Part shown: positions 45,404 to 60,364 of the stretch, in pieces
How positions within the stretch are numbered: the first letter of the stretch is position 1
Layout of the letters: each line of letters starts with the position of its first letter
Source of the DNA: a virus
IMG/VR virus record: IMGVR_UViG_3300034063_001075
Location: 1 to 64,000 of that record
Strand: one strand, 5' to 3'
DNA length: 64,000 nt
Notes under the pieces: generated by a model
What the model was told of the DNA's origin: nothing
Database searches by the model: none
Seen by the model: only the letters and a program-made list of their open reading frames with translations
Position numbers and translations under genes: made by a program

Positions 45404-46016
45404 TTCCCGTTCGGGTATATGTCGGAGGTAGCCGACATCCTGTAAAAGTCGGAGAACGGCGACTCCCGCCCCATCAAGTGCGAAAGCGTTATCGAAAGTA
45501 AGGGGGAAGAGCCCCACTTTCCCACTGCCTCCCCACTGCATATTCGAAGGCCTACAGAGTAAAAGTGGGAGTGGGGTAAGGGGGGTGGGAAAATAATCCC
45601 GGCAAAAATCTAAGAGGCGTTGGGGGCCTTCCCTTATATTATAATTTTTAGTCCATAAATGTTACTTTTCTTCATTTATCTCCACTTCTGGCTACCCATC
45701 CGTCCCGTGCAAGACTCCGATTTACTCTGTTGAATGAGGGTCTTTCGGGGCGGGGGCTGGGCCTTTTTGGGAGTGGGGGTAAGTGGGGGTCCCCTCTGTA
45801 GCGTTGTCCCACTTCAACCCCACTTTTTAGGCCTACCCCACTTCCAGACCAAAAATTTTTTCTATCCCCCTAATTAAAGTAAAGACATTGCCGATTTCCC
45901 CCCTCCGGTCCTACCCGCGTGGTGGATGCTAGCTCCGTCTCTGCTTCTCTGTCGAGAGCTAAAGGGGGACGGTCGGGGGACAGATGACGGGACCAACAGA
46001 CAGGGGCCAGAGCGCC
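45404..46016. other. Noncoding iteron region: candidate replication origin
   Basis: The longest noncoding stretch (613 bases). It holds about ten copies of CCCCACT(T) or its complement AGTGGGG between 45510 and 45845 in both orientations, including CCCCACTTT at 45512 facing AAAGTGGG at 45563, a tandem AGTGGGGGTAAGTGGGGG near 45772 and three CCCACTT at 45808-45843. AT-rich tracts lie at 45631-45680 (TTATATTATAATTTTTAG) and 45851-45886. Repeated sites beside melt-prone DNA, between head-on plus and minus genes and beside DnaA-box-rich operons, is what an origin looks like. Terminator functions at gene ends are also possible. Confidence 0.5.
45414..45421 (+). promoter_or_regulatory. GGTATATG site
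   Basis: Eleven bases after the dCMP deaminase stop, at the edge of the iteron region. Confidence 0.35.
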
Positions 46017-46805
46017 TCAGACAGGGGGCGGAGCAGGCAGGGCGAGGAGCGGCTCCCCGCTCTCTGTTGGCGACCCGCTCTCACATTCTTGCGGCCTTCT
46101 CTGTAGCGGCCTGCTTTGGACGTCAATCTGCTCCTCTGCTAGCTGAGACAGGAAGCCGATGTTCACTATGGTCTTCGACTCCTTGTCTCCTTGGTCTAGG
46201 CCCAAGGTCTGTCTGGCTACAGAGTTGAGGGAAGAGATATCTTTGGCCTTGGACAGAAGCTGAGGGCCGTTCATCTTCGCTACTGAGTCCGCAAAGACTA
46301 GGGAGGCCCTTGCCATCTTCTCTCTGTAGCTCTTACCCTGCTCGACTAGCTTAGAGACGGCGGCATTGGTCGCCGATTCGAATCTCGCCTGTGCCGCCTC
46401 ATGGAGGGCGTCTATCTCCCTAGCCCACCCCTCCCTGCTGAACCTAGCTGTGAGGGTCTGCACCCCGCACCCCATGTCCGCCGCTATGTCTGCATAGGTG
46501 TCGCCACGGGCACGGCGAATCCTAGCCAACATCCAATCGATTGAATCAGTAAAGGTATCGGTCCCCGACTTCATTCGCTTCTTCGTCGCATAGCTCCTCT
46601 TCTTCTTCTTAGCCGGAGGCGATTCAGGATCAGGGGACTCAGGAGAATCAGGCGTGCTAGCACTGCTAGCAACTTCAGACCCGGCAGCCTCCGGGTCAAT
46701 CGCCGGGTCAATCGCCGGGTCTTCCGGGGGAAGCGCTGGGTCACTGTTGTGGAGCGCTAGCACAGTATCGAGAAACTCTTCTGACGGTTGGTCGTTCTGT
46801 TCCAT
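46017..46805 (-). CDS. HTH protein, candidate small terminase
   Basis: A 262-residue protein from ATG at 46805 (MEQNDQPSEEFLDTV); the open frame continues upstream but across the divergent promoter. Residues ~30-75 are Pro/Glu/Asp/Ser-rich with a DPAIDPAID duplication, then a basic KKKKRSYATKKR. A helix-turn-helix follows (DTYADIAADMGCGVQTLTARFSREGW without its first residues, ~95-120) and a long helical part, then a Pro-rich tail. The order HTH, helical oligomer domain, disordered tail suits a small terminase, which is missing near terL. A transcription regulator is the alternative. Confidence 0.55.
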   Translation of the reverse strand: MEQNDQPSEEFLDTVLALHNSDPALPPEDPAIDPAIDPEAAGSEVASSASTPDSPESPDPESPPAKKKKRSYATKKRMKSGTDTFTDSIDWMLARIRRARGDTYADIAADMGCGVQTLTARFSREGWAREIDALHEAAQARFESATNAAVSKLVEQGKSYREKMARASLVFADSVAKMNGPQLLSKAKDISSLNSVARQTLGLDQGDKESKTIVNIGFLSQLAEEQIDVQSRPLQRRPQECESGSPTESGEPLLALPAPPPV

Positions 46806-46887
46806 TCGATCAAAGGACGCTAGCAGCAAATCACTGATTTGCAAGAGGTTTGTGATACCTGCTAGCAGGTTGGGGATAAGTCGCTGT
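46806..46887. promoter_or_regulatory. Divergent control region with DnaA-box-like variant and GCTAGC cluster
   Basis: An 82-base gap between the minus-strand HTH gene and the first AAA ATPase gene. It contains GCTAGC at 46819 and 46860, the second within CCTGCTAGCAGG, and GGGGATAAG at 46871, the variant of the TGTGGATAAG element, ending eight bases before ATG 46888. Three more GCTAGC lie just inside the HTH gene. Confidence 0.5.
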
Positions 46888-47976
46888 ATGGAAAACATCA
46901 ACACCACAATCAACCTCACAGCAACTGAACTCAGCGCTCTCTCTGTTAAAGAGCTTCGCAAGCTCGCCAACGAACAGAGCCTCGGGTCCGGAGGCTGGAG
47001 GGCCACCGCAACCAAGGACGCTCTCGTCACCGCGCTCTCGACCGGACAGGTTCCCGCTTCGCCGACGAACTCGGCTGCTAGCGCGGCAACTCTCGCCGAT
47101 GCCATCGAACGTGTGATTTCCTCGGTCACACCTTCGCTCGACGAAGACCGTGTCCGCGAACTGATCGCGGAGATCGTCCCCACAATCGACTCCAACCGCC
47201 CCCGAGAGATTGAGGTCATCCGCCTCGACACCTCCAAGGTCAACGTGGGTCGCCAGCACTACCTGTTCGCACAGCTTCTTCAGTGGGCTGCTCTCCGGAT
47301 TCCGGTCATGCTCGTCGGCCCCGCTGGCTCTGGCAAATCGACCGCCGCTGAATTTATCGCCAAAGCGCTCACTCTGGAATTCTACCCGATGAGCGTGACG
47401 AACCAGACGAGCAAGTCCGATCTGATTGGCTACAAAGACGCGACCGGAAACTACCATCCTAGCATCTTCCGCCGCGCCTTCGAATTCGGTGGGGTCTTCA
47501 ACCTCGACGAGGTGGACAAGGGTAACGCGAACGTCCTCGCCGTGCTGAACTCGGCCTCGGCGAACGGTTACTGCTCGTTCCCCGACCGTGTCGTGCAAGC
47601 GCACCCCGACTTCGTCTTCATCGCCGCTGGCAACACCTACGGCCTCGGGCGGAACGCTCAGTTCGTCGGCTCCAATCAACTCGACGCCGCTACGCTCAAC
47701 CGTTTCGCCACTCTGTCGTGGGGTTACGACGAGTCGCTGGAGAGCGAAATCACCGCGCCGTTCGGTCAGACCGATTGGGTTCGGTTCGTCCAGAAGGTCC
47801 GCTCTGTCGTGGATTCGCTGGGCATCCGCCACATCGTCTCGCCCCGCGCTAGCATCCAAGGTTCACAGGCCCTCGCTGCGGGAATCGACCGCCATGACGT
47901 CGAGTCCGCCGTGCTCTGGAAAGGCCTCGACTCCGCTTCAGTGGAGAAGGTCCGCCAGAACCTCATCGCCGCCTAA
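46888..47976 (+). CDS. MoxR/CobS-type AAA ATPase with SAP-like domain (1)
   Basis: A 362-residue protein from ATG at 46888, set by the GGGGATAAG element upstream. Residues ~12-50 (LSVKELRKLANEQSLGSGG then WRATATKDALVTAL) are a SAP/HeH-like DNA-binding helix pair. AAA core: Walker A GPAGSGKST (~144), Walker B VFNLDEVDKGN (~202), sensor AAGNTYGLG (~246), arginine NRFATLSW (~271). MoxR, CobS and CbbQ relatives form hexamers that remodel partner proteins together with a von Willebrand A protein; the VWA protein here is at 54.7 kb and a second ATPase at 53.5 kb. Target unknown. Confidence 0.82.
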   Translation: MENINTTINLTATELSALSVKELRKLANEQSLGSGGWRATATKDALVTALSTGQVPASPTNSAASAATLADAIERVISSVTPSLDEDRVRELIAEIVPTIDSNRPREIEVIRLDTSKVNVGRQHYLFAQLLQWAALRIPVMLVGPAGSGKSTAAEFIAKALTLEFYPMSVTNQTSKSDLIGYKDATGNYHPSIFRRAFEFGGVFNLDEVDKGNANVLAVLNSASANGYCSFPDRVVQAHPDFVFIAAGNTYGLGRNAQFVGSNQLDAATLNRFATLSWGYDESLESEITAPFGQTDWVRFVQKVRSVVDSLGIRHIVSPRASIQGSQALAAGIDRHDVESAVLWKGLDSASVEKVRQNLIAA

Positions 47977-47984
47977 CCGGATTG

Positions 47985-48007
47985 GCACAGGGTCCGACCC
48001 CCTGTGC
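47985..48007 (+). terminator. Hairpin after AAA ATPase 1 (no T tail)
   Basis: Arms GCACAGGG (47985-47992) and CCCTGTGC (48000-48007) around TCCGACC. No T run follows, so it may protect mRNA ends or act with Rho. The inner GGTCCGACCC recurs in the hairpin after the next gene. Confidence 0.45.
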
Positions 48008-48043
48008 TAGCACCTCAACCAACTCTGAAACTCTGAAAACCTC

Positions 48044-48052
48044 TGTGGATAA
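48044..48052 (+). promoter_or_regulatory. DnaA-box-like TGTGGATAA
   Basis: Exact copy; ATG of the next gene starts eight bases after it. Confidence 0.55.
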
Positions 48053-48059
48053 GAACCCG

Positions 48060-48950
48060 ATGAAAACCAGCACCACCTTCGAAACCGATCACACGCTCGT
48101 CCGATTCCCTTCGTTCGCCGACTACGTGGCCGCATCTGAGGCCCCGAACCCGAGTTCCGAAATCGGCAACCATTTCGGCAAGGGCAACGAGTGGGCGGGA
48201 TACGCGACCCTCACCCAAGCCCGAGACCTCATGTCCTCCGGTTGGGAAGAAGGCGCGGCCCGAGTCCGCTCAATCTCCGACCGTGTCAAGCAAGCCATCC
48301 CCGATGCCGTGCTCAGCGCCTTCCGCCCCGAACAGGTTTGGGACGTCACAGGCGAGCAACTCGACGTGGGTCGCTTTCTCGACGGCGAGCCCGAGTGCTT
48401 CATGGACGAGGTGGTCCCCGATCGTTCCGAGCAAATCGACGGCAACGGCATTGTCCGCATCACGATCAACCTGTGGGCCTCTGCTGGAATCTCGCCCGAC
48501 GAACTCCGGACGCGAGGCGTCTTCGTCGCAGCACTGGCGGACGTGCTGGAATCGATCGGCTACCGCGCTCAGATCGACGGCTACGTTGCTAGCGCCACCC
48601 ATCACGACGTCAAAGGCAAGATGCTCAAGCGTCCGCTCGTCATCGCGTTCCCGATCAAACGCCCCGACGAGGCTCTGGAAATCGACCGCCTGTCGTTCGT
48701 GCTAGCTCACGCCGCCTCGCTTCGCCAGATCGGTTTCCATGTCATGGACGTTGTCGGGTCTCGCGCCAAATACTACGGCTCGCCCTGCACCTTGCCCAAA
48801 GTTTACGAGGGCCACGTTCCGGTCAACGCCCTGCACTTCCGTGACCTCACCGACAAGGATACGGCCAAGCAAATCCTCGACCAACTCAAACAGCTTGGGG
48901 TGGACCTCGACACCGACGACCTCTTCGAATCCAACGACGAGTGCTTCTGA
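48060..48950 (+). CDS. Conserved phage protein linked to AAA/VWA genes
   Basis: A 296-residue protein from ATG at 48060 (MKTSTTFETDHTLVRFPSF). FADYVAASEA and GNEWAGYATLTQARDLMSSG are its clearest motifs; then QVWDVTGEQLDVGRFLDGEPECF, a VRITINLWASAGISPDEL strand-helix and HHDVKGKMLKRPLVIAFPIK. I have a recollection of such 'WAG..t...A..l...GW' proteins beside CobS/CobT-like genes in phages; no enzyme motif is visible. Its place between element and hairpin suggests a single-gene unit and a functional link to the ATPase before it. Confidence 0.7.
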   Translation: MKTSTTFETDHTLVRFPSFADYVAASEAPNPSSEIGNHFGKGNEWAGYATLTQARDLMSSGWEEGAARVRSISDRVKQAIPDAVLSAFRPEQVWDVTGEQLDVGRFLDGEPECFMDEVVPDRSEQIDGNGIVRITINLWASAGISPDELRTRGVFVAALADVLESIGYRAQIDGYVASATHHDVKGKMLKRPLVIAFPIKRPDEALEIDRLSFVLAHAASLRQIGFHVMDVVGSRAKYYGSPCTLPKVYEGHVPVNALHFRDLTDKDTAKQILDQLKQLGVDLDTDDLFESNDECF

Positions 48951-48960
48951 GGAATCCGGT

Positions 48961-48979
48961 GCGGGGTCCGATCCCCCGC
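48961..48979 (+). terminator. Hairpin with GGTCCGATCCC core
   Basis: Arms GCGGGG (48961-48966) and CCCCGC (48974-48979). Same inner motif as the hairpin at 47985, so the two form a repeated intergenic structure. No T run. Confidence 0.4.
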
Positions 48980-49005
48980 GCCCCCGCTGATACACGCGCA
49001 ACCCC

Positions 49006-49014
49006 TGTGGATAA
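49006..49014 (+). promoter_or_regulatory. DnaA-box-like TGTGGATAA
   Basis: Exact copy, 11 bases before ATG 49025. Confidence 0.55.
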
Positions 49015-49024
49015 GACTGAGACC

Positions 49025-49117
49025 ATGAACATATTCATCCCCATGCTTTTCTTCGTGATCATTCCCGCCGCTGGAGCGATCGCCATTCTCATCGCCGACC
49101 ATTACCGCAACGACTAA
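49025..49117 (+). CDS. 30-residue membrane peptide
   Basis: MNIFIPMLFFVIIPAAGAIA then ILIADHYRND: almost entirely one hydrophobic helix with a polar end. Preceded by a DnaA-box-like element and followed four bases later by another start. Function unknown. Confidence 0.5.
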   Translation: MNIFIPMLFFVIIPAAGAIAILIADHYRND

Positions 49118-49121
49118 CAAC

Positions 49122-49379
49122 ATGACCGCCGAACCCACACTTCAAATCCGTCACGACCACCCCTCGCTTCGCCCGACCTTGGAAGAGGCTCAGCAATATG
49201 TCGGGGGGCTCGTCGAAATAGCTCCGGTCTACAACTCCGAATACCGTGACGCACAGCTTCTGGTCAACGAGGAGGGCCTCGTCCACGACCTACCACCCAA
49301 CGTCCTCGCTAGCATCTTCGCAGGTTACGAGATTCGCGGCAACGCCATGATCCTCTTGGGCGCGGCCAGATGGGATTGA
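49122..49379 (+). CDS. DUF3846-like protein
   Basis: An 85-residue protein. LEEAQQYVGGLVEIAPVY, LLVNEEGLVHDLPPNVLAS and EIRGNAMILLG match the DUF3846 pattern (V-G-G-x-V-E...V-N-E-E-G...L-P-x-N...G-N). These occur in phages and mobile elements; function not established. Confidence 0.68.
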   Translation: MTAEPTLQIRHDHPSLRPTLEEAQQYVGGLVEIAPVYNSEYRDAQLLVNEEGLVHDLPPNVLASIFAGYEIRGNAMILLGAARWD

Positions 49380-49443
49380 CCATGAACTCTTTCACCCGCT
49401 TCGAATCTCTGACCAGCACTGTGCGTGATATCTTCGAAACCCC

Positions 49444-49452
49444 TGTGGATAA
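49444..49452 (+). promoter_or_regulatory. DnaA-box-like TGTGGATAA
   Basis: Exact copy, seven bases before ATG 49460. Confidence 0.55.
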
Positions 49453-49459
49453 GACTACG

Positions 49460-49759
49460 ATGAAAAACCAATTCAGCCGCAAACATTACGAGGCGATCGC
49501 CTCCGCTCTCGCCAACCGCATCGCCCTTGAGGGCGCTCAGTCACCCGCCGCTGGCGGCATTCGCCTCGCCGCTCTCGACCTGTCCTACGTCTTCGCCGCC
49601 GATAATCCGCGCTTTGACCGTGGCCGATTCCTGTCCTCCGCTGGCGCAATCGACACGACCTTCCGACCGTTTCGCCGCCCCGAGCCCGACAACGGCCAGC
49701 GCACCCCCCGCTTCAGTGCGCTTCAGCCTTCCGGATCGCCCTTCGCTCGTTCTTATTGA
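49460..49759 (+). CDS. Small protein, conserved in phages
   Basis: A 99-residue protein from ATG 49460 (MKNQFSRKHYEAIASALANR). An in-frame ATG at 49382 would read through the DnaA-box-like element, so the later start is preferred. YVFAADNPRFDRGRFLSSAG is a motif seen in many small phage proteins. Function unknown. Confidence 0.65.
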   Translation: MKNQFSRKHYEAIASALANRIALEGAQSPAAGGIRLAALDLSYVFAADNPRFDRGRFLSSAGAIDTTFRPFRRPEPDNGQRTPRFSALQPSGSPFARSY

Positions 49760-49777
49760 CCGACTGCCATCAACCCG

Positions 49778-49785
49778 CATATACC
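49778..49785 (+). promoter_or_regulatory. CATATACC site
   Basis: In the 45-base gap before the small membrane gene at 49805. Confidence 0.38.
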
Positions 49786-49804
49786 AATCATCACCTTGCC
49801 ATCT

Positions 49805-49978
49805 ATGAATCTCGATCTTCTCCAGTCCGTGCTTGAGGCGTTCGTTTTCCTCACCGTGCTCATCGCTACTGCGATTGCGCTATGGCCCGAACCCGCCGTC
49901 GAACCCGAACCCGAGCATGATAGTCCGTTCGACGACTTCGATACTCAGCCTCAGTGCGAGGAGTTTTACGCCGACTAG
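49805..49978 (+). CDS. Small membrane protein with acidic tail
   Basis: A 57-residue protein, MNLDLLQSVLEAFVFLTVLI, one helix, then Pro/Glu/Asp-rich tail (EPEPEHDSPFDDFD). Function unknown. Confidence 0.55.
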   Translation: MNLDLLQSVLEAFVFLTVLIATAIALWPEPAVEPEPEHDSPFDDFDTQPQCEEFYAD

Positions 49979-50023
49979 TAAGCAACCTTCCATACACCAA
50001 CACCAACCAACACACCAACAACC

Positions 50024-50227
50024 ATGCCCGAAACCATCGAACCCAACGCCGTCCTTCCTACGATTGACGGACCACTCAAGCTGAGCCAGCAACACGTGGC
50101 GTTCCTCGCCGTGCTAGCTGCTCTCAGCGGCGACCCGAGCGAGGCTTTGCAATTTGCACAGACCGAGCCCGACTACTTCATTTCACAGTCCAACGACTGG
50201 GCGGCGGAACAGGAGGTGTCGCTTTGA
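50024..50227 (+). CDS. Small protein, unknown function
   Basis: A 67-residue helical protein; SQQHVAFLAVLAALSGDPSE is its core. Ends inside the start of the next gene (TTGA). Not recognised. Confidence 0.55.
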   Translation: MPETIEPNAVLPTIDGPLKLSQQHVAFLAVLAALSGDPSEALQFAQTEPDYFISQSNDWAAEQEVSL

Positions 50228-50544
50228 GAAACGGACCCTTCACTCTTGACGAGGTCTTCGACCGGATCGCCGAAATCCTCGACCTCCCCGAGGAAACGAA
50301 CGACCTCTTCAATGCGTTTCTAGACGAGGCTCCCTGCGGCGAGGAAGAGGACGAGAGTCCACTTCTTGATATCCTCCCGAACGCAGAGCAAGTCGAGGAC
50401 GGCTTCGTCTATCGCGTCTCAGTCAATGAATCGGAAAGCGGCAACACGCTAGCAAGCGCCGTCTTCCAAACAGAGGAGCAGGGCCAGCAAGCCATCGACC
50501 TTCTCCTTCTTCTCCAAGAACTCAACGAACACGGACTGCACTAA
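50224..50544 (+). CDS. Acidic protein, unknown function
   Basis: A 106-residue acidic protein starting at TTG 50224, which overlaps the previous stop. FTLDEVFDRIAEILDLPEET then GFVYRVSVNESESGNTLASA. Not recognised; the TTG start is inferred from coupling. Confidence 0.52.
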   Translation: MRNGPFTLDEVFDRIAEILDLPEETNDLFNAFLDEAPCGEEEDESPLLDILPNAEQVEDGFVYRVSVNESESGNTLASAVFQTEEQGQQAIDLLLLLQELNEHGLH

Positions 50545-50548
50545 ACTT

Positions 50549-50926
50549 ATGATACCACTGCACAACACAGTAATGGGCCAGCGATTGATTGAGGGCACGT
50601 TGCCCGACATCGCTCGCGAACTGAAAGCGCTCAACGTGAACATGAATCGGATTGCAGAAGCGTTCGAAAAGAAAGAGGTCTTTTCTTCTTCGTCCTCTTC
50701 TAGCTCTTCGGTGACTACCGTGGCGACCTGTCCGCCACCTCCGGTTTGTCCGGTTCCGGAAGGGACCTGTCCGGTCTGCGTAGTTGAAGCGCTTGTCGAA
50801 CACTTCGAAAGCATACATGGCGAGGGCGCTTGCGATTGTCGCCCCGAACCCGAGAACGAGGGATACACCTGCCCGATCTGTATCGCTCGCCTGTTTATTG
50901 ACGAGAACGATGGGAGGGAACACTGA
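50549..50926 (+). CDS. Cys-rich protein with poly-Ser linker
   Basis: A 125-residue protein: helical start (DIARELKALNVNMNRIAEAF), a run of nine Ser, then CPPPPVCPVPEGTCPVCVV and CDCRPEP then YTCPICIARLF. Pairs of C-P-x-C suggest zinc binding. Not recognised. Confidence 0.58.
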   Translation: MIPLHNTVMGQRLIEGTLPDIARELKALNVNMNRIAEAFEKKEVFSSSSSSSSSVTTVATCPPPPVCPVPEGTCPVCVVEALVEHFESIHGEGACDCRPEPENEGYTCPICIARLFIDENDGREH

Positions 50927-51123
50927 TGGAACCCAAAGAAGTCACAGAGCTAGAACGTGCGCGTCAGATGAATCACCGCCACATCAACCTCACGTTCCGC
51001 ACCGAGATTACCACCGACGACATACCGGACGCCGCGCTGTTGGGATACCTCAAGAAGCGTTCGCTGTCCGAACTGTCGCAACGCCGCACCGAGATCATCG
51101 ACGACGAAGGGAGGGGACAATGA
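50926..51123 (+). CDS. Small protein, unknown function
   Basis: A 65-residue charged protein (LTFRTEITTDDIPDAALLGY, LKKRSLSELSQRR). Shares junction bases with both neighbours. Not recognised. Confidence 0.52.
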   Translation: MEPKEVTELERARQMNHRHINLTFRTEITTDDIPDAALLGYLKKRSLSELSQRRTEIIDDEGRGQ

Positions 51124-51392
51124 TGCTAGCAGACTTTGACCCCAAACCTTTCGTGGGGTGGGCGCGGAACATGGCATCCATCCTCAAGGACGGCGGCACG
51201 TGGGCTGTGCCTATGAACCAAACAGCGTATCGCTTCGACCACAAAGCCAAGCAACTTGTCTTGGTCTATGGTCCGGAGGACGAGTTGTTTGAAAAGACCC
51301 GCTCTGTCTTTTCCGAAATTGGCTACACCGTCATCGCCGATCCCGACCGTCCTTTGGGCGGCGAGTGTCCTGCGACCATCTTCTCCATCTGA
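51120..51392 (+). CDS. Small protein, unknown function
   Basis: A 90-residue protein from ATGATG at 51120: FVGWARNMASILKDGGTWAV and YRFDHKAKQLVLVYG, then YTVIADPDRP. A compact alpha/beta fold is likely; the segment recurs in small phage proteins. Function unknown. Confidence 0.6.
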   Translation: MMLADFDPKPFVGWARNMASILKDGGTWAVPMNQTAYRFDHKAKQLVLVYGPEDELFEKTRSVFSEIGYTVIADPDRPLGGECPATIFSI

Positions 51393-51397
51393 CCACC

Positions 51398-51802
51398 ATG
51401 CACCTCTCCGAGTTACCCGACCAGACCACCCCGCTTTGCCTCTTGTATCACAACGGCACGGTCAACATGGTCAATGACCGAGAGGACACGATGGAGATTT
51501 CTCCGGTCCAGACCCTAGCTGTGGCCCAACTTATGGACCGCGATAACCTTTGGGAAAGTTTCCGAGCGAACGACAGCTTCATGCAGTTGTTCCGCTTTGT
51601 CTTTCCGGAGGAACATATCGCCCCCGAACGCAAAGCTAGCACCGGAGTGCGGCACGTGTCGGGCATGATAGTCCTGTTGGCCGCAGCTAGGCGGGATCGG
51701 CTCCGCGCTTTTCTCCGTTTCCCCGAATCCTATTTACACCCCAAGGCACAGTTAGGACTGGCCGACATGATGATAAGCCTGTCGAAACCAAGCTGTTGCT
51801 GA
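51398..51802 (+). CDS. Protein of unknown function
   Basis: A 134-residue protein, MHLSELPDQTTPLCLLYHNG and onward, with a helical middle (NLWESFRANDSFMQLFRFVF) and two Cys at the end. Not recognised. Confidence 0.55.
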   Translation: MHLSELPDQTTPLCLLYHNGTVNMVNDREDTMEISPVQTLAVAQLMDRDNLWESFRANDSFMQLFRFVFPEEHIAPERKASTGVRHVSGMIVLLAAARRDRLRAFLRFPESYLHPKAQLGLADMMISLSKPSCC

Positions 51803-51816
51803 TTTCTAAAACTCCC

Positions 51817-51825
51817 TGTGGATAA
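51817..51825 (+). promoter_or_regulatory. DnaA-box-like TGTGGATAA
   Basis: Exact copy, seven bases before ATG 51833; its flanks match those at 49444 base for base over 20 positions. Confidence 0.55.
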
Positions 51826-51832
51826 GACTACG

Positions 51833-52051
51833 ATGAACGCTGAATTTACACCCACCGCTTGCGATAAGGAGAGTTATTACATCACCGTGGGCGACTACGT
51901 TGCCCACAACCGGAAGCTTTATCGCGTTGTCCGCATATTCGAAGACCCGAGTATCGAACCTCCCGCTGGTAATACCTTTCTAGAACTTATCAGCATCAAA
52001 AACCTTTCTATCTTGGTCGTCCGTGACAACACCGTCGAAGTGCTGGAATGA
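51833..52051 (+). CDS. Small protein, unknown function
   Basis: A 72-residue protein from ATG 51833. YYITVGDYVAHNRKLYRVVR and ILVVRDNTVEVLE suggest a small beta barrel (SH3 or KOW-like). Not recognised. Confidence 0.58.
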   Translation: MNAEFTPTACDKESYYITVGDYVAHNRKLYRVVRIFEDPSIEPPAGNTFLELISIKNLSILVVRDNTVEVLE

Positions 52052-52052
52052 C

Positions 52053-52274
52053 ATGAAGCGCCACTACCTTGTTCACACTCGCGGCCACTCCTATGCGTTC
52101 ACCGCAGAAGAAGGCAAAGAGCTACAGCTTCCCCCTCGTTTGCGGAAGCGGGTCGCCGCTCACCTCAAAATTCACGATATGCTTTTGGATGAATCGGTAA
52201 CGATTTTCCAAGGCAGCACCGGAATCGTTCTTCAACGAGTCCGCCCCGATTGGAGTCACGCTTATGAAAATTAA
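52053..52274 (+). CDS. Small protein, unknown function
   Basis: A 73-residue protein, MKRHYLVHTRGHSYAFTAEE and onward, beginning one base after the previous stop. Not recognised. Confidence 0.52.
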   Translation: MKRHYLVHTRGHSYAFTAEEGKELQLPPRLRKRVAAHLKIHDMLLDESVTIFQGSTGIVLQRVRPDWSHAYEN

Positions 52275-52443
52275 AATCAACACAACCGTTGACGTCGATC
52301 CGGTGAAGTGGGTTTTGAACCGCTACGGAACGACCGTGAAGTCCGACCGCAATGTCCAGTGCCGGAAGCTAGCAGAGGAGATTCGTGAAGGCTGCTTGCG
52401 AGCCATCGATGAATATTTAGAGCAATACGACCCAAGCAAATGA
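52264..52443 (+). CDS. Small protein, unknown function
   Basis: A 59-residue protein from ATG 52264, MKIKINTTVDVDPVKWVLNR then CRKLAEEIREGCLRAIDEYL. It overlaps both neighbours by four to eleven bases. Not recognised. Confidence 0.5.
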   Translation: MKIKINTTVDVDPVKWVLNRYGTTVKSDRNVQCRKLAEEIREGCLRAIDEYLEQYDPSK

Positions 52444-52694
52444 AAACTCAACTCACCCAAGAAGAGGTATCCACCCTCCAAACGGAACACCAAGAAATGT
52501 TCGTCGCGTTGCTAGAAGCTGTGTCGGCTCTCGACCGGATCGATGAGTTGCTGTTGGAACAAACCAACAGCCCCCGCGAATGCGCCCTTGGCGAAGTGAG
52601 TCGTGGCCTCGCTGTGATTTGCCGCGTAGCCGCTCGTCACCGCGACTCCGTTTACCGCCACACCATAAGTCGTTTGGAATCAAGGGGTTCGTGA
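52440..52694 (+). CDS. Helical small protein
   Basis: An 84-residue helical protein (TLQTEHQEMFVALLEAVSAL). Not recognised. Confidence 0.52.
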   Translation: MKTQLTQEEVSTLQTEHQEMFVALLEAVSALDRIDELLLEQTNSPRECALGEVSRGLAVICRVAARHRDSVYRHTISRLESRGS

Positions 52695-52709
52695 TACTTT
52701 GATTTGCCC

Positions 52710-52718
52710 TGTGGATAA
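52710..52718 (+). promoter_or_regulatory. DnaA-box-like TGTGGATAA
   Basis: Exact copy, 43 bases before ATG 52762; followed by GTAACTG as at 54629. Confidence 0.52.
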
Positions 52719-52761
52719 GTAACTGTCAGCACACCAACCATCAACCAACACATCAACAACC

Positions 52762-53106
52762 ATGCCTAAAAAATCCGCCTCCGAAATCGCCGCTGAGAAT
52801 CTTGAGAAAGACCTCACGTCGAAATACCCGACTCCGAAGATCGTTGCCGAGTTGATCGAAAAGGAATTCATCGCGGCCCCTTCGTTGTCCCGCATCGTGA
52901 CGCAGTTGGCTTATTACGCCTTCCGCGACACGTCTGACAAGGAACGCACCGTGAAAGCGTTCAGTGACCTCATTCACTTCTGTGAAATGGCTGAGGATCA
53001 AGTCAAAGAGGGTCTCACAGCCATCGGCATTCTCAATGGCTTGGCCGAAGACTTGGTTGACACGGCAACAAAGCGGGAGGCCAACCCCTTTGCGGGGGTG
53101 AACTGA
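52762..53106 (+). CDS. Helical protein, unknown function
   Basis: A 114-residue helical protein; KIVAELIEKEFIAAPSLSRI and FSDLIHFCEMAEDQVKEGL. Forms its own unit between a DnaA-box-like element and a strong hairpin. Not recognised. Confidence 0.58.
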   Translation: MPKKSASEIAAENLEKDLTSKYPTPKIVAELIEKEFIAAPSLSRIVTQLAYYAFRDTSDKERTVKAFSDLIHFCEMAEDQVKEGLTAIGILNGLAEDLVDTATKREANPFAGVN

Positions 53107-53113
53107 TCCCGCT

Positions 53114-53168
53114 GCGGCGGAGTCGTCCGGTGGTTTTATGTCCCACTGGTTCTCCACGACTCCGCCGC
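53114..53168 (+). terminator. Long perfect hairpin after 52762 gene
   Basis: Thirteen-base arms GCGGCGGAGTCGT (53114-53126) and ACGACTCCGCCGC (53156-53168); inside, CCGGTGG can pair with CCACTGG. No T run follows. Very stable; likely an mRNA 3' end or processed RNA. Confidence 0.55.
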
Positions 53169-53210
53169 CCAACTTTCAAAATCCAACTAACCACTAACTA
53201 ACCTAGCACC

Positions 53211-53456
53211 ATGCCACTAACTAAAACTGAACTGACAAAACGCCGCCTTGAATTCTACCGAGGATACGAAGCGGATCGTGAAGAAGAAGTCGCCACGCTC
53301 AAACGTGGGCAAGACGAACTGATTAACCTCATTCGCGCTCTTGTCCTCGTTTCCCGCCGCGACGAAACGATCAACAACATCATTAAAGAACGCGAGTCGT
53401 TTGTGGATCACTCTTACGACTCCGAATGTGAGGAATACGAAAAGAAGAACAACTAA
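53211..53456 (+). CDS. Coiled-coil small protein
   Basis: An 81-residue charged helical protein (KRRLEFYRGYEADREEEVAT). The gene is preceded by ACTAACTAACCTAGCACC, repeated almost exactly before the next gene at 53474, so both share a leader. Not recognised. Confidence 0.52.
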   Translation: MPLTKTELTKRRLEFYRGYEADREEEVATLKRGQDELINLIRALVLVSRRDETINNIIKERESFVDHSYDSECEEYEKKNN

Positions 53457-53473
53457 CTAACTAACCTAGCACC

Positions 53474-54613
53474 ATGTCAACTACCGAACACAGCCACGCA
53501 ATCGTGGAATCCAGCACACCCTCGACCGCCAGCATCGATCTTTCGACGCTAACCGTTGCGGGTCTCCGCAAGCTCGCTTCTAATCGCGGGATTGGAACGG
53601 GTGGGTGGCGGGTCTCCGCGACTCGCGACCAACTCATCAACGCGATCACCCTTGGTCACGTCCCGACCCCCACGCCCGTTGCTCCGGCTCCGGCCTCCGT
53701 TGCTCCTGCTCCTGCTCCGGTCGCCCCGAGCGCTAGCACCGTGGTCTCACCTGCGATCCAACCGTCCCGACCCGCACCCGTGCTGGTTTATCCGGACGTC
53801 GATCCTAGCTTCGTCGTTTCCAAGGAGGTTGCCGAACTCGTCGATGTCGTTCTGCAAATCCCCAACGGCAAGATTCGCAACGTCCTTGTCACCGGACCTG
53901 CGGGTTGCGGCAAGACTGAGCTAGCACGTTTCTCTGCGGCTACGGGCAAAGCTCCGTTCTTTGAGTTTTCCATGCCGCTGTATCGTGAACCTCTCGACCT
54001 CTTCGGCGAGAAGTGCGTAGCGGACGGCAAGACGTTCTTCCTGCCTAGCTTGTTCATCCAAGCTTTGGAAACACCTCACGCTGTTATCCTCCTCGACGAG
54101 GTTAACCGTGTTGCTCCGCTCCTCGCCAACGGTCTGCTTCCGTTGCTCGACCACCGCAAGGAGGTTTATGTGGAAGGCCTTAACCGGATCGTCCGTGTTG
54201 CCGAGAACGTCACGTTCTTCGCCACGGCGAACATCGGCGTCGAATACACCGGAACATTCCGCCTCGACTCCGCTCTGGCCTCGCGCTTCCCGTATCGCAT
54301 TGAGGTGACCTACCTCGACCGCGAGTCCGAATCCAAGTTGCTTGCCGAGCGTTGCGGGATTACCCCCGAGGATGCTCAGATGCTAGCAACCGTGGCCGAG
54401 ACGATCCGCGCCAAATCCGCCGACTTCGGTGGAACCCTGTCGCACTCAGTCTCGACCCGCGAACTCATCGGCGCGGGGTGGCTGGTCGCTGGCGGTCTGC
54501 CTACGGGCAAGGCCCTCACGCACACCATTGTCCCCACCTTCGATCCCGAGGGTGCGGAGTCTTCGGAACGGGCACAAGTCCTTCAAACTGTTCAGCTTGT
54601 CTGTGGTCTCTGA
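53474..54613 (+). CDS. MoxR/CobS-type AAA ATPase with SAP-like domain (2)
   Basis: A 379-residue paralogue of the ATPase at 46.9 kb. Residues ~23-58 (LTVAGLRKLASNRGIGTGG then WRVSATRDQLINAI) repeat the SAP-like domain, followed by a Pro/Ala/Val-rich linker (~63-95) absent from the first. Walker A TGPAGCGKTELA (~138), Walker B VILLDEVNRVAP (~203), sensor and arginine in ATANIGVEYTGTFRLDSALA then SRFPYRIEV (~250-275). It precedes the VWA gene directly and is the likelier partner of it; two ATPases may form mixed rings or act on different targets. Confidence 0.82.
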   Translation: MSTTEHSHAIVESSTPSTASIDLSTLTVAGLRKLASNRGIGTGGWRVSATRDQLINAITLGHVPTPTPVAPAPASVAPAPAPVAPSASTVVSPAIQPSRPAPVLVYPDVDPSFVVSKEVAELVDVVLQIPNGKIRNVLVTGPAGCGKTELARFSAATGKAPFFEFSMPLYREPLDLFGEKCVADGKTFFLPSLFIQALETPHAVILLDEVNRVAPLLANGLLPLLDHRKEVYVEGLNRIVRVAENVTFFATANIGVEYTGTFRLDSALASRFPYRIEVTYLDRESESKLLAERCGITPEDAQMLATVAETIRAKSADFGGTLSHSVSTRELIGAGWLVAGGLPTGKALTHTIVPTFDPEGAESSERAQVLQTVQLVCGL

Positions 54614-54737
54614 TACCAGATAGCAACCTGTGGATAAGTAACTGAACAGAACTTTCCATCCACCCCTCGCCGGAAGGGGTAAAGCTCCCAACAGAGCATC
54701 CGGCCAACTTTCCAAAAACACCAACCAACAACTGACC
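54614..54737 (+). promoter_or_regulatory. Leader of VWA gene
   Basis: A 124-base gap with an exact TGTGGATAA at 54629-54637 and a short hairpin CCCCT/AGGGG at 54663-54679. The element is 100 bases before the VWA start, the longest spacing seen, so a transcript leader is likely. Confidence 0.45.
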
Positions 54738-56849
54738 ATGTCTCAATATTCATCATTCGCCGATTACCACCGTCAACGTGCGGCTAGCTCCGGTGCAGCT
54801 ATGAAGCGCCGTGCCTCTACTTGGTTCTACGAAGAGAAGACTGAGGACCGTAGCGACCGTAGCTGGAAGAACTACGAAGATGACGAACTCTTCGATGCCG
54901 AGGCCTACGATGGTTCCAAGTATTCAGCCTCCGCTTCCCTTGGCCGCTATTGGGGTAGCTACTCCTCCTACGGGGACTCCGATAAAAAGAAATCCAAGAA
55001 GCAGGAGAACTCCGAAAAGCTAGCTCGCTCACTCAAAGCTGTGGCGCGGTCATGCAATGCGATTCGGTCTACCGTTGGGCGCGGCAAAGACCTTTCCCTC
55101 AAGGTGAAATGGAGCAGTGGCTTTGACGGTAACAACGTCCGTCAGAATGACGTGATAGTGCTTTCGCCCGATACGATCTTACAGACCAAGGTCAAAGAGA
55201 ACTGGGACGAAGGCAAACGCTCTGACGCTCTCGTTGGTGACGCACTTACCGCCGCCGCTCAGAAACGCACGATCACTCCCTCTGTTGTGGCGGAAGCTGT
55301 ATTGGCCTCCCAAACCGACCCCGATGCCGAGACTGCCCGACTACTGTGGTCCGCTGTCGAGACGGACGTTGCCCAATCCGCCCTGCTTAACGACTACCGT
55401 GGCGCGGCTGTTTACTTTGCTGCTAGCAACGCGTTCCACTCTTCCGACGAATACCGGACAGTCGTGGAAAACTCTTTCACGGACGGTCAAACCCGCAAGT
55501 CTGATGCCGCTACCGTGGCGCTGGCTTGGAACATCCTCCACCAGAAAAAGCTAGAGCTTCCGGAGGACGTTAGAGAACTCACTGCTACTGCGATGCGTGA
55601 ATTCGCAAAAGCCAAGACGTGTCGCGATCGTTGGAACGCTTCTCTTCGCGCCGTCAAACTTCTCCGCTCGCTTGATCCCGAGCAACCTCCGCAGGAGAAC
55701 CCGCCCTCCCCACCCGAGGAAGAAAGCGCAAACCAAAACCCCAACGGGGAGGGCGGGGATGCGGAGCAGGATGCTTCCGAGGAAACTAGCGTAGTTAAAA
55801 ATGGCGCTGGGCAGATTGGTATGTCCGATCTCCTTGGCGACCTCGTTGAGAACACAACAGGTCCGGTTCAATCGAACACCCAAGACGTGGAAGAGATTGC
55901 CGAGGAAGACGAGTCGTCCCTCAACTCCCGAAACACCATCGACGATGAGTCTAGGCACACCCGTTTGCACGACCACCAACAACTAAACGGTTGCCGCTCT
56001 GCGGTTGTGGCCCCCGCAACCAAGGCCCTGCTAGCAGGTTACAACGGGTTGGTTCGCCGCCTTTCCGGCTTGGCCGATTTGTTCTCTACCGTCAACACAG
56101 TCGAATCCTACGGTCGCCGTTCCGGTGTGCTTGACGATGCCAAGCTGTGGTCCGTTCCGTCCGGTGAAACAAACGTCTTCATCCGCCGAGACGAGACAGG
56201 CGAAAAACGGGAGGTTTCAATCGCTGTGCTTGTCGATCTTTCCGGTTCGACCGGATGCCAGATAGACACGTCTTTCGGCGGTTTCGCCGACTTTAGAGAA
56301 AGTGTATCGTTCGAAGAGCGTGTAAAGCGCCTTAACAAAACGGATGAGGACTATCCGCAACACGTTCCGATTTCCGTTCATCTTAAACGGGCGGCGTCCA
56401 TCTTAACTGAGGCTCTCCGTGCTTCTGATACCAACACTGGCGTCCGCATTCAAACTTACGGACATTATTGTGGGCACGTCGAGTATTACGGCCAGACCGC
56501 CAACTTGGTTCAAGGCGACAACGGTGGCGGGACCGACGAAGCAGGTGCGCTAGCACGGACTGTCAAACACTTTACCGAAAGCGACACTCGCGATTGCCGT
56601 AAGATCGTAATCTGCATTGGGGATGGTGAGACTGATTCAGCACACCTCCGCAAGATCGTTGATGCGTCTGCCAAGCTAGGCGTCGAAGTCTATTCCATTC
56701 TTGTAGCGCATCACGAAGGGCGCATCAAACAGCACGGCGAAGTTGCCTTCGGCAAGGGCCGCTTCTGCGGTCTGTCGATTGATACCGCGAAAAACCTTCC
56801 GACTGTCCTCACTTCGTTCGTCACCCGCATCCTTTCGAAAGCCCGTTAA
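54738..56849 (+). CDS. CobT-like von Willebrand A protein
   Basis: A 703-residue protein. An N-terminal region rich in Ser/Tyr/Lys (~1-100), a helical middle (~100-310), an acidic disordered stretch (EEESANQNPNGEGGDAEQDA, ~325-345) and a C-terminal VWA domain. MIDAS: VDLSGST (D-x-S-x-S, ~497-503), GGGTDEAG (~597-604, Thr) and CIGDGETDS (~624, Asp). This order is that of CobT, the partner of CobS in cobalt chelatase, and of VWA partners of MoxR ATPases in general. No corrin gene is near, so protein remodelling or metal insertion of another kind is likelier than cobalt chelation. Confidence 0.85.
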   Translation: MSQYSSFADYHRQRAASSGAAMKRRASTWFYEEKTEDRSDRSWKNYEDDELFDAEAYDGSKYSASASLGRYWGSYSSYGDSDKKKSKKQENSEKLARSLKAVARSCNAIRSTVGRGKDLSLKVKWSSGFDGNNVRQNDVIVLSPDTILQTKVKENWDEGKRSDALVGDALTAAAQKRTITPSVVAEAVLASQTDPDAETARLLWSAVETDVAQSALLNDYRGAAVYFAASNAFHSSDEYRTVVENSFTDGQTRKSDAATVALAWNILHQKKLELPEDVRELTATAMREFAKAKTCRDRWNASLRAVKLLRSLDPEQPPQENPPSPPEEESANQNPNGEGGDAEQDASEETSVVKNGAGQIGMSDLLGDLVENTTGPVQSNTQDVEEIAEEDESSLNSRNTIDDESRHTRLHDHQQLNGCRSAVVAPATKALLAGYNGLVRRLSGLADLFSTVNTVESYGRRSGVLDDAKLWSVPSGETNVFIRRDETGEKREVSIAVLVDLSGSTGCQIDTSFGGFADFRESVSFEERVKRLNKTDEDYPQHVPISVHLKRAASILTEALRASDTNTGVRIQTYGHYCGHVEYYGQTANLVQGDNGGGTDEAGALARTVKHFTESDTRDCRKIVICIGDGETDSAHLRKIVDASAKLGVEVYSILVAHHEGRIKQHGEVAFGKGRFCGLSIDTAKNLPTVLTSFVTRILSKAR

Positions 56850-56883
56850 CCACTAACCAAGAATCCGATACCAACAAATCGTC

Positions 56884-56892
56884 CGTGGATAA
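56884..56892 (+). promoter_or_regulatory. DnaA-box-like variant CGTGGATAA
   Basis: One mismatch from the exact element, seven bases before ATG 56900. Confidence 0.45.
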
Positions 56893-56899
56893 GTATTGT

Positions 56900-57136
56900 A
56901 TGGAAACACCCACAACAACAGCCCCCGTCAACCGCACCCGAATCCCCAGCCTCGTCAACCGAGCCGCTCTACGAAAGCTGCTCCTCGACATTGCGGCTGA
57001 GGAGAAGGGCCACTTGCCGTCCTGCTATCACCTCAAGCGTGTAGCAGATTCTGTCTTCGACGAGGCCGAGGCCGCGCTCCGGACCTTCGCCCGTAACAAG
57101 GTCCGCTCCGTTAGAAAGGGAAAGACCATCCAGTAA
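56900..57136 (+). CDS. Small basic helical protein, possible histone-fold-like
   Basis: A 78-residue basic protein from ATG 56900 (METPTTTAPVNRTRIPS). Helix (LVNRAALRKLLLDIAAEE), loop, helix (VADSVFDEAEAALRTFARNK), ending VRKGKTIQ. The layout, with a central helix and closing R-K-G-K-T-I, calls to mind archaeal histones (RKTI), but the third helix is missing. Many phages carry such 'EAEAALRR' proteins. DNA binding is plausible; the histone link is speculation. Confidence 0.55.
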   Translation: METPTTTAPVNRTRIPSLVNRAALRKLLLDIAAEEKGHLPSCYHLKRVADSVFDEAEAALRTFARNKVRSVRKGKTIQ

Positions 57137-57262
57137 CCCCTTTTGACAGGGAGAGGAATTGCGGCGGCGTTTGGTTCTTTGCGCTGGTTATTTTCATTCT
57201 CCTGCTCCGTAACCGCGTAAAAGCGGAGCGCCCTGTCAACCCCTTGACTTTCACCTACCAAT
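57137..57262 (+). other. Structured noncoding gap
   Basis: A 126-base gap with nested inverted repeats: TTGACAGGG (57143-57151) against CCCTGTCAA (57231-57239), and GCTCCG (57204-57209) against CGGAGC (57224-57229). A reading frame with a membrane-like stretch crosses it but has no start. Probably a transcript-end or regulatory RNA structure. Confidence 0.4.
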
Positions 57263-57484
57263 ATGCAACCATCATACACCTACACCGTGACCTATAAAAA
57301 CTTACCGTGCTGGCATCCGGTTCGCCAAATGCACCGGAACCCCTCGTTCGATCGTGAGAACGACTGGCTCTTCGACCTGTTCTCCCGCCGCCGTCCCTTG
57401 TCTCTCTGGCAACGGCTCAAAGCCTTTGTCGCGAGGGAGTTAGCTCCGGTCTCTGATCACCTTAAACGGACTGTGGATAAGTAA
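57263..57484 (+). CDS. Small protein, unknown function
   Basis: A 73-residue protein, MQPSYTYTVTYKNLPCWHPV and onward, with Trp and Arg-rich middle. Its last codons run through the TGTGGATAA element of the next gene. Not recognised. Confidence 0.5.
   Translation: MQPSYTYTVTYKNLPCWHPVRQMHRNPSFDRENDWLFDLFSRRRPLSLWQRLKAFVARELAPVSDHLKRTVDK
57472..57480 (+). promoter_or_regulatory. DnaA-box-like TGTGGATAA
   Basis: Exact copy, eight bases before ATG 57489, inside the end of the previous gene. Confidence 0.55.
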
Positions 57485-57488
57485 CCGT

Positions 57489-57905
57489 ATGCAAACGTTC
57501 CTACCTTATCCCAACTTTCACGACTCTGCCCGAGTCCTCGACAATCGGCGTTTAGGCAAGCAACGGGTTGAGACGCTTCAGATTCTCAAAGCTCTCAGCC
57601 TCCCCACTTACGGTTGGCAAAACCACCCCGCTGTCAAAATGTGGCGCGGCTTTGAGCGGGGGCTCGCCGTCTACGGCGTAGTGATCTGCAACGAGTGGCT
57701 TCGGCGTGGTTTCAACGACACCTGCCTCGACAAGATTCGTCTGTATCTCAACGTGCATCCGACTGGGGGCACGATCCCGCCGTGGATCGACGACGAACAA
57801 TTCTGTCGGTCTCACCAATCCAATCTCATCCGAAAGGATCGCGCTCACTACGCCCCTTTCTTCCCCAACGTTCCGGACAACCTCCCGTATGTCTGGCCCA
57901 ACTGA
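57489..57905 (+). CDS. MSMEG_6728-like family protein
   Basis: A 138-residue protein: MQTFLPYPNFHDSARVLDNR RLGKQRVETLQILKAL then YGWQNHPAVKMWRGFERGL. This is the conserved start of the MSMEG_6728 family of bacteria and phages. The 'RLGKQR.E' start resembles that of pyrimidine-dimer glycosylases (T4 endonuclease V type), so DNA repair is possible, but the C-terminus differs. Function not established. Confidence 0.72.
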   Translation: MQTFLPYPNFHDSARVLDNRRLGKQRVETLQILKALSLPTYGWQNHPAVKMWRGFERGLAVYGVVICNEWLRRGFNDTCLDKIRLYLNVHPTGGTIPPWIDDEQFCRSHQSNLIRKDRAHYAPFFPNVPDNLPYVWPN

Positions 57906-57908
57906 TCT

Positions 57909-58127
57909 ATGAAACAACGCAACTACAAAAAGGAATACCAACAGTTCCATGCAAAGCCCGAGCAAAAGCAAAACCGCGCTCAGCGTAATGCGGCTCGCGC
58001 AAAGATGGCCGCTGCTGGCCGAGTCCACAAAGGGGACGGCAAAGACGTCCATCACGTCAAAGGCATGAGCAACAAAGCTAGCAACCTTCGGGTCATGTCT
58101 GCCTCCCGTAACCGCTCAATCAAATAA
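57909..58127 (+). CDS. HNH-like small basic protein
   Basis: A 72-residue basic protein. GDGKDVHHVKGMSNKASNLR then VMSASRNRSIK has the H-H...N-L-R...N-R-S pattern of HNH nucleases, but the N-terminal zinc cysteines are lacking. It may be a minimal or inactive HNH, or a DNA-binding protein. Widespread in phages. Confidence 0.6.
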   Translation: MKQRNYKKEYQQFHAKPEQKQNRAQRNAARAKMAAAGRVHKGDGKDVHHVKGMSNKASNLRVMSASRNRSIK

Positions 58128-58150
58128 CCACCAACACCAACACCAAACCT

Positions 58151-58681
58151 ATGCGAACCATCCAAAGAAGTAATCCACTACAAGACCACGACAACTCAGA
58201 AGACACCGTCTCAATCATGGCCGAAGTCCTCGTATCCGAAAACGTGCGTTCCAAGCATTCACCCCGTCCGGTGATGGAGCGTGTCGTCCGTGCGATGCAG
58301 GGGGACGCTGGCGACGATCTCTCCGAGGAACAGCACAAGCGATTCGACCTATCCCGCAGGGTAGCGAAGTTCACCGTGAGCCGATTCGAATTGGAAAGCG
58401 GCTCAATCTTCGTGCTGATCTTCTTGGACGCTAGCGGCGTGTTCGTGGCGACGCTGAAGGACCTCGAAGACATTCTTCGTGCCGATGCTAGCAAGCCACA
58501 CCCGTTCGACTTGTCAGCCAATAGGGTCGTCATTCGATCCCTTATCCCGCTCCGTGAAGGCGAGGCCTTGGACATTTCAATGACCCCCGAGGATGCGGAG
58601 AACGACAAAGCAATGCAGCACGTGCTTCGTCTCGCGACTGTTCTCAGTCCGAGTGATGTCGTCAAACCGGAGCTTAACTAA
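58151..58681 (+). CDS. Protein of unknown function
   Basis: A 176-residue protein; VSRFELESGSIFVLIFLDAS then GVFVATLKDLEDIL forms a beta-rich core after a helical start. Not recognised. Shares its last base with the next start. Confidence 0.55.
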   Translation: MRTIQRSNPLQDHDNSEDTVSIMAEVLVSENVRSKHSPRPVMERVVRAMQGDAGDDLSEEQHKRFDLSRRVAKFTVSRFELESGSIFVLIFLDASGVFVATLKDLEDILRADASKPHPFDLSANRVVIRSLIPLREGEALDISMTPEDAENDKAMQHVLRLATVLSPSDVVKPELN

Positions 58682-58866
58682 TGACTACCATAGTACAGCT
58701 AATCATAGGGGGCGGCATTCTCTTCATGCTCTTCTGCGTGGTCGGACTTGTCGTCGAAATGAATCGACTCCGAGCCAAAGCGCGAAGCGCCGAGGAAGAC
58801 GCTGCGTTTTACCGCAAGTGGTTGAACCGCGCTTTGTTCAGAGACAGGGAGGACTTGTTTGTATGA
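58681..58866 (+). CDS. Small membrane coiled-coil protein
   Basis: A 61-residue protein with one N-terminal helix (VQLIIGGGILFMLFCVVGLV) followed by a charged helix. Resembles an inner-membrane spanin in shape; no partner seen. Overlaps the next gene by four bases. Confidence 0.55.
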   Translation: MTTIVQLIIGGGILFMLFCVVGLVVEMNRLRAKARSAEEDAAFYRKWLNRALFRDREDLFV

Positions 58867-59426: not shown

Positions 59427-59449
59427 CCAACAAACAAACAAAACTAAGT

Positions 59450-60357: not shown

Positions 60358-60364
60358 ATTTAGC

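Follow-up and report, generated by a model that had tools for sequence, protein, structure and literature searches.

Nine co-oriented two-box elements in a phage gene block: probable copies of a phage-specific, mostly leaderless promoter that resembles a DnaA box

Why should a word identical to a perfect DnaA box recur in a single orientation in front of the genes of one phage gene block? The question is raised by the IMG/VR virus record IMGVR_UViG_3300034063_001075, a record of 76,033 bases of which positions 1 to 64,000 form the window. The word TGTGGATAA occurs in the window in seven exact copies, at positions 48044, 49006, 49444, 51817, 52710, 54629 and 57472, all on the plus strand and all confined to 48044-57480. 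Two further sites carry one-base variants of the 10-mer, TGGGGATAAG at 46871 and CGTGGATAAG at 56884, and all nine sites lie on the plus strand within one 10.6-kb block. A word search of the window confirmed every coordinate given for these copies in a preliminary description, together with their co-orientation. That description had offered several readings: control by or titration of host DnaA, replication start sites, or a phage-specific promoter or translation element with no more than an outward likeness to a DnaA box. The present analysis establishes that the repeat is real, non-random and phage-specific, and it indicates that the nine elements are probably copies of one phage-specific promoter giving mostly leaderless transcripts.

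In shuffled windows TGTGGATAA occurred 0.29 times on average, and seven copies were reached in none of 100 shuffles. With up to one mismatch allowed, the 10-mer gave 12 matches in the window against 2.27 expected, three of them (6208, 36056 and 37526) outside the block. A motif search of the whole genome, proposed in the preliminary description, revealed eight exact copies of the core TGTGGATAAG in the record, all on the plus strand and none on the minus strand, with only the copy at 65215 lying beyond the window; a reversed control word gave 0 matches. In all eight exact copies a G directly follows the 9-mer on its 3' side. The copy at 65215 is located within a minus-strand open reading frame (ORF, 64583-65296), and ATG is absent from the next 120 nucleotides (nt). 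Its score of 28.0, with a matrix built from the other nine sites, compares with a maximum of 15.9 in 20 simulated genomes, and the two-block element at this place (record positions 65197-65224, plus strand, antisense to the minus-strand ORF) may be a tenth copy. It has been excluded from the counts of nine and included in the column counts of the alignment (n=10).

Alignment of the nine sites revealed a feature absent from the preliminary description: a second conserved block, TGATAC or near to it, lies upstream of the core in all of them, at a distance of 12 bases in eight copies and of 11 bases at 51817. The block reads TGATAC at 46871, 49006, 52710 and 54629, and CGATAC (56884), TGATAT (49444), TGAAAC (48044), TGATCA (57472) or TGATTT (51817) at the others. 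The elements are as follows.

Element 1: 46853..46880, plus strand, TGATAC-N12-TGGGGATAAG with variant core; ATG at 46888, AAA+ ATPase gene
Element 2: 48026..48053, plus strand, TGAAAC-N12-TGTGGATAAG; ATG at 48060, DUF7192 gene
Element 3: 48988..49015, plus strand, TGATAC-N12-TGTGGATAAG; ATG at 49025, ORF of 30 amino acids
Element 4: 49426..49453, plus strand, TGATAT-N12-TGTGGATAAG; ATG at 49460
Element 5: 51800..51826, plus strand, TGATTT-N11-TGTGGATAAG; ATG at 51833
Element 6: 52692..52719, plus strand, TGATAC-N12-TGTGGATAAG; next ATG at 52762, gap of 42 nt
Element 7: 54611..54638, plus strand, TGATAC-N12-TGTGGATAAG; next ATG at 54738 (gene with a weak VWA match), gap of 99 nt
Element 8: 56866..56893, plus strand, CGATAC-N12-CGTGGATAAG; ATG at 56900
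Element 9: 57454..57481, plus strand, TGATCA-N12-TGTGGATAAG; ATG at 57489, pyrimidine dimer glycosylase gene

Element 4 may alternatively be internal to an ORF with a possible start at 49382. Over the nine sites the best six upstream columns hold 7.63 bits of information. This value was matched by none of 5000 random sets of nine drawn from each of three sources, the genome (maximum 5.06 bits), gene-upstream DNA (5.61) and the block itself (4.78). The mean pairwise identity is 0.94 for the core and 0.61 for the upstream (-35) block, or 0.75 when 51817 is left out; outside the boxes it amounts to 0.34 in the spacer, 0.41 in the six bases past the core, 0.25 far upstream and 0.32 downstream. The DNA itself shows directly which words recur, how far apart they are, how they are oriented, where they lie and where they stand relative to the start codons.

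The layout of the elements is that of a promoter: a TGATAC-like box, 16 bases and GATAAG in eight of the nine, with 15 bases in the remaining one, which agrees with the two-box spacing of about 16-18 bp expected of promoters of the sigma-70 family. The preliminary description placed most copies just before an ATG. The gap that separates the 10-mer from the ATG next to it measures, in the order of the sites, 7, 6, 9, 6, 6, 42, 99, 6 and 7 nt, so the statement holds for seven sites (gap of 6-9 nt) and fails for 52710 (42 nt) and 54629 (99 nt). Constant spacing between the two blocks, combined with a distance to the ATG that varies from 6 to 99 nt, is what would be expected of a promoter in DNA and not of a ribosome site. 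Of the readings first proposed, the evidence favours the last, a phage-specific promoter element that merely resembles a DnaA box.

We infer the promoter role and the transcription start points from this geometry. The proposed promoter would consist of a TGATAC box, a 16-bp spacer and a GATAAG box within TGTGGATAAG, and transcription would start about 7 nt past the GATAAG box. Numbered from the ATG, GATAAG occupies -12 to -7 and the upstream box -34 to -29 at the four sites with a six-base gap (the upstream box being one base closer at 51817). With the end of the core set at -7, the A of the ATG falls on +1 in four cases, +2 in two, +4 in one, and +37 and +94 in the last two. The predicted start point would accordingly coincide with the ATG or precede it by 1-3 nt at seven sites, yielding mRNA without a leader or nearly so, while the two remaining sites would give leaders of about 36 and about 93 nt; all these promoters would serve one gene block. 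Leaderless genes are marked by a -10-like box that precedes the start codon by about 6-12 bp, and such a box is present at seven of the nine sites. Two of the start codons are anchored by homology, that of the DUF7192 protein (residues 5-281 aligned with profile positions 5-279) and that of the Pyr_excise protein (residues 1-81 with 1-79). Shine-Dalgarno-like 4-mers were found upstream of just 9 of the 51 ORFs of at least 120 amino acids, an approximate figure based on longest-ORF starts.

Leaderless promoters of this shape are known from bacteria. Experiments in Deinococcus have shown that leaderless transcripts are driven by a -10 motif located mostly 6-7 bp before the ORF (PMC12340547), and leaderless genes of bacteria are taken to be marked by TA-like signals some 10-12 bp upstream (PMC3160421). 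The phage elements resemble these promoters in that a box precedes the start codon by about 6-7 bp, so that transcription would begin at or next to that codon, and differ from the TANNNT motif of the Deinococcus-Thermus group in carrying GATAAG within TGTGGATAAG and TGATAC upstream of it (PMC12340547, PMC3160421). The present element, moreover, is not genome-wide; it belongs to one block of one phage and is known from sequence alone.

Which factor would read such a promoter has been approached by profile searches. We take a host alternative sigma factor or an unrecognised phage factor to be the most likely reader. The boxes may bear some likeness to FliA-type (TAAA-N15-GCCGATAA) and ECF-type (TGAAAC) promoters. 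A T7-type RNA polymerase (RNA_pol) was not detected in the record, in a search that was positive in 0 of 14 controls. For Sigma70_r4_2, whose cut-off is 25.7 bits, only two matches appeared, both far weaker than that: one of 13.4 bits and one of 10.6 bits, the latter within the divergent gene at 46017-46805. In the part of the report on phage AR9 that treats its promoters, early and late promoters likewise present one consensus before many phage genes; AR9, however, encodes its own RNA polymerases, whereas no polymerase or sigma factor has been recognised here, and the AR9 leaders measure 26-491 nt, compared to leaders predicted to be absent or tiny at seven of our nine sites (PMC5312081).

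Several results weigh against the promoter interpretation. A scan of 45400-60500 for TTGACA/TATAAT gave 5 sites against 5.0 expected, none of them at an element; a housekeeping sigma-70 consensus promoter has been rejected on these grounds. Pfam profiles detected no Sigma70_r2 or Sigma70_r4 domain in the 76-kb record, which may be incomplete, and the same profiles were positive in 10 of 14 (Sigma70_r2) and 14 of 14 (Sigma70_r4) controls. The spacer identity of 0.34 slightly exceeds the best of 500 random 11-base sets (0.336, with a mean of 0.26), as does that of the six bases past the core (0.41), so that part of the likeness between copies is left unexplained by the two boxes. The sites 48044 and 49444 agree in 87% of the 30 bases around the core, and some sharing by descent is therefore possible. 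Owing to a spacing shorter by one base, element 5 (51817) reaches just 10.3 with a leave-one-out matrix, a score inside the noise level of the simulated genomes, which extends up to 15.9, and the -35 block of 57472 also scores poorly (1.0, leave-one-out matrix). Finally, the exact identity of the word with a perfect DnaA box is left to coincidence.

The comparative searches add to these points. The search of relatives, which the preliminary description had also proposed, yielded a set of copies only in one contig with identical proteins, that of locus L033 (33,058 bases; 21 of 39 compared proteins 100% identical), which carries three exact copies and the 46871 variant. A 14,816-base record is identical where it overlaps and ends before the block. 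Among 26 loci with terminase relatives, 13 records were searched whole for the exact word, several of them short pieces from which the block may just be missing; the word was present in four, three times in the L033 contig and once each in three others. The other related records share the terminase, most of them also structural genes and some also replication genes, and the AAA+ and DUF7192 genes of the block were found in none of those compared. No related phage among the 13 records thus shows a set of copies, the sole multi-copy contig being protein-identical, and comparative or evolutionary support is lacking for this reason. The pattern TGAWAC-N12-TGTGGATAAG was found at 52 loci in viral contigs, 51 with one match, which may be due to chance, and one (L033) with two; a looser pattern of core plus ATG gave eight stretches, one of them L033, and neither scan revealed a second viral contig with a set beyond it. 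Nor are bacterial genomes enriched in the full pattern, with 10 matches in scattered taxa against about 7-8 by our own chance estimate, none of the ten being titled Verrucomicrobiota. A single phage lineage is thus far the only known source of the element.

Further searches for counterparts covered the genes as well as the motif. Word enrichment before gene starts, a weak method, gave no obvious counterpart in relatives, in some of which A-rich or A/C-rich words scored higher; applied to this phage, it left the motif out of the top 14 words in one run and ranked TGGATAAG third in another (6/10, p 4e-4). The element was absent, as judged by eye, from the 60 nt before the gene in the best 80 of 424 glycosylase relatives. 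Peptide patterns found close homologues of the first AAA+ ATPase and of the DUF7192 protein in viral contigs only in the L033 contig, and none in viral contigs of the second AAA+ ATPase or the VWA-like protein; the second ATPase was not found in record L122 either, in a search without a working control. More distant relatives are common: 281 phage records encode proteins like the second AAA+ ATPase (identity not above about 36% among 20 listed matches), and 97, mostly Mycobacterium phages, encode DUF7192 (26-30% identity among 15 listed matches). Two phage records, an Akkermansia phage among them, match the terminase at 23%, which points weakly to a host in Verrucomicrobiota; two peptide patterns, the only ones used, found no terminase relative in bacterial genomes. 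Among the papers listed for phage, leaderless and DnaA elements none describes such an element, a search for Akkermansia phage promoters found none, and for transcription starts and promoter motifs of Verrucomicrobia a single paper, on ECF41 sigma factors, was listed.

The likeness to a DnaA box deserves separate consideration. DnaA boxes follow the consensus TTWTNCACA, and E. coli DnaA binds tightly to perfect boxes of the type TTATCCACA (PMC5835720). All seven exact copies of the window present this perfect box on the opposite strand, in agreement with the 9-mer consensus and as in bacterial DnaA boxes; they differ from such boxes in the further fixed base, the second block, the single orientation and the scarcity of relaxed boxes (PMC5835720). 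Plain DnaA boxes serving titration or replication start might be suggested by seven perfect copies in about 9.4 kb, a density far over chance, and this explanation is nevertheless very unlikely: titration or origin sites should be close together, include weaker boxes and be independent of gene starts, whereas these copies share one orientation, are spaced 0.4-2.8 kb apart within the 10.6-kb spread of the sites, and go together with a second block and, at seven of the nine sites, with a start codon. The titration and start-site readings of the preliminary description are disfavoured on the same evidence. Both variant sites depart from TTWTNCACA at a required base, one of them in the CAC core, and the record contains 11 matches to the consensus, namely the eight exact copies and three inexact ones (7831, 42111 and 43915) where about 4 are estimated by chance. 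A -10 region that doubles as a real DnaA box, through which host DnaA would repress or activate the block and link it to the state of replication, is unlikely, though less so. It is consistent with the perfect TTATCCACA at all seven exact sites, with the rarity by our own arithmetic of a random 9-mer core that equals a perfect box, and with the E. coli mioC promoter, where the strength of the DnaA box is reported to set the degree of repression (PMC5835720). The altered bases at the two variant sites, the G fixed outside the box in all eight exact copies and the few relaxed boxes argue against it. The fixity of bases that DnaA would tolerate is weak evidence, since near-identity to the word was itself the basis for choosing the ten aligned sites. 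Such a double function overlaps with the promoter interpretation, and the likelihoods given here are not shares of one whole. In its full form, with a perfect host DnaA box built by the phage into the -10 of mostly leaderless promoters and DnaA switching the block according to the state of replication, the proposal must be regarded as a rather long shot. The DnaA likeness is most likely coincidental, which is testable.

An element acting in RNA at translation initiation, in the manner of the Start-Associated Sequences (SAS) of cluster K mycobacteriophages, is improbable. The description of SAS and ESAS shows a resemblance, in that asymmetric, mostly co-oriented repeats stand right before many phage gene starts and about half of the SAS have an additional upstream element, as the present sites have an upstream block (PMC3203893); the end of the core 6-9 nt before the ATG at seven sites is in keeping with such a role. 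The SAS consensus GGGATAGGAGCCC, compared by eye, is nevertheless different from TGTGGATAAG, and ESAS is a 17-bp imperfect inverted repeat with a variable spacer, in contrast to the single short box at fixed spacing found here (PMC3203893). SAS function, for its part, is left open by its own paper (PMC3203893). Two copies at 42 and 99 nt from an ATG, and a TGATAC block at fixed spacing, would be unexpected for a ribosome site, and the purely translational alternative of the preliminary description is accordingly disfavoured. More doubtful again is the view that the sites are not core promoter elements but operators at which a phage regulator, such as the divergent DNA-binding protein, would act. 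Element 1 faces the gene of that protein and has palindromes in and beside it, of which CCTGCTAGCAGG (46858-46869) shares the last base of TGATAC and extends into the spacer; the repeat as such, however, lacks symmetry and is promoter-spaced, and the palindromes have been seen at element 1, the other elements not having been systematically scanned for them. In the divergent intergenic region (46806-46887) the palindromes are GCAAATCACTGATTTGC, which lies beside element 1, and CCTGCTAGCAGG, which sits between its two boxes. A coding feature, in which GTG GAT AAG would provide another start or encode a conserved peptide, is scarcely credible: the triplets are in frame with the ATG at 48044, 49006, 49444, 51817 and 56884, whereas 52710, 54629 and 57472 run into TAA right past the core and 46871 lacks GTG. 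As a general account it is contradicted by four of the nine sites.

The block that the promoters would serve includes small ORFs and, with the divergent gene at its edge, the following recognisable genes.

46017..46805, minus strand, likely DNA-binding protein, divergent (PHROG 664, E 2.2e-6; HTH_23 below cut-off)
46888..47976, plus strand, AAA+ ATPase, MoxR/CobS-like (AAA_5; PHROG 249, named 'porphyrin biosynthesis', CobS-like)
48060..48950, plus strand, DUF7192 / PHROG 1909 protein (profile match from residue 4-5; start codon 6 nt past the core)
53474..54613, plus strand, second AAA+ ATPase (AAA_5, CbbQ_C)
54738..56849, plus strand, protein of 703 amino acids (VWA match below the Pfam cut-off, E 0.014)
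57489..57905, plus strand, pyrimidine dimer DNA glycosylase (Pyr_excise from residue 1; start codon 7 nt past the core)

The two AAA+ ATPases are 29% identical over 278 amino acids, N-terminus included. No element directly precedes the second, which follows element 6 with two small ORFs in between. The VWA-like gene adjoins that of the second ATPase, as CobT adjoins CobS. All Pfam matches of the divergent gene are below the cut-off, and its role as a local regulator or repressor is a fair guess, no more. Near-identical A/C-rich leaders run into ATGs in the same block, at 50001-50033 and 52739-52771 (88%) and at 53193-53216 and 53456-53479 (96%); they are perhaps another start-associated repeat, a leader type for translation without Shine-Dalgarno sequences.

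Other features of the record concern repeats and a long gene. GCTAGC is its commonest 6-base palindrome, with 72 copies in the window and 91 in the 76-kb record, compared to about 20 expected from base composition (own estimate) and 80 from a Markov estimate based on 5-mers; its density is 0.6-1.2 per kb in the closest relatives and 0.1-0.3 per kb in three more distant ones. CTGGCTCTG (43 copies) and TGAGACTGG (30 copies) recur in the window on one strand only, probably within a repetitive gene. An ORF of at least 3287 amino acids occupies 65957-75820 of the record (L009:5957-15820) on the minus strand, its frame open at the end of the record; it has no Pfam match at E 0.05 and matches PHROG 3170 (unknown function) alone, at residues 155-311. 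Neither tRNAs nor Rfam families (at gathering thresholds) were detected in the window.

If the promoter interpretation is true, a promoter type would have been defined from the DNA sequence by itself, in a phage whose terminase weakly points to hosts in Verrucomicrobiota. Nine transcription starts would be predicted with nearly single-base precision, of which seven would leave no leader or nearly none, and a sigma factor or activator still to be identified would be predicted as well. A DnaA-box-like word can then be part of a promoter, which would make it either a trap for predictions of origins and titration sites or a real point of host control.

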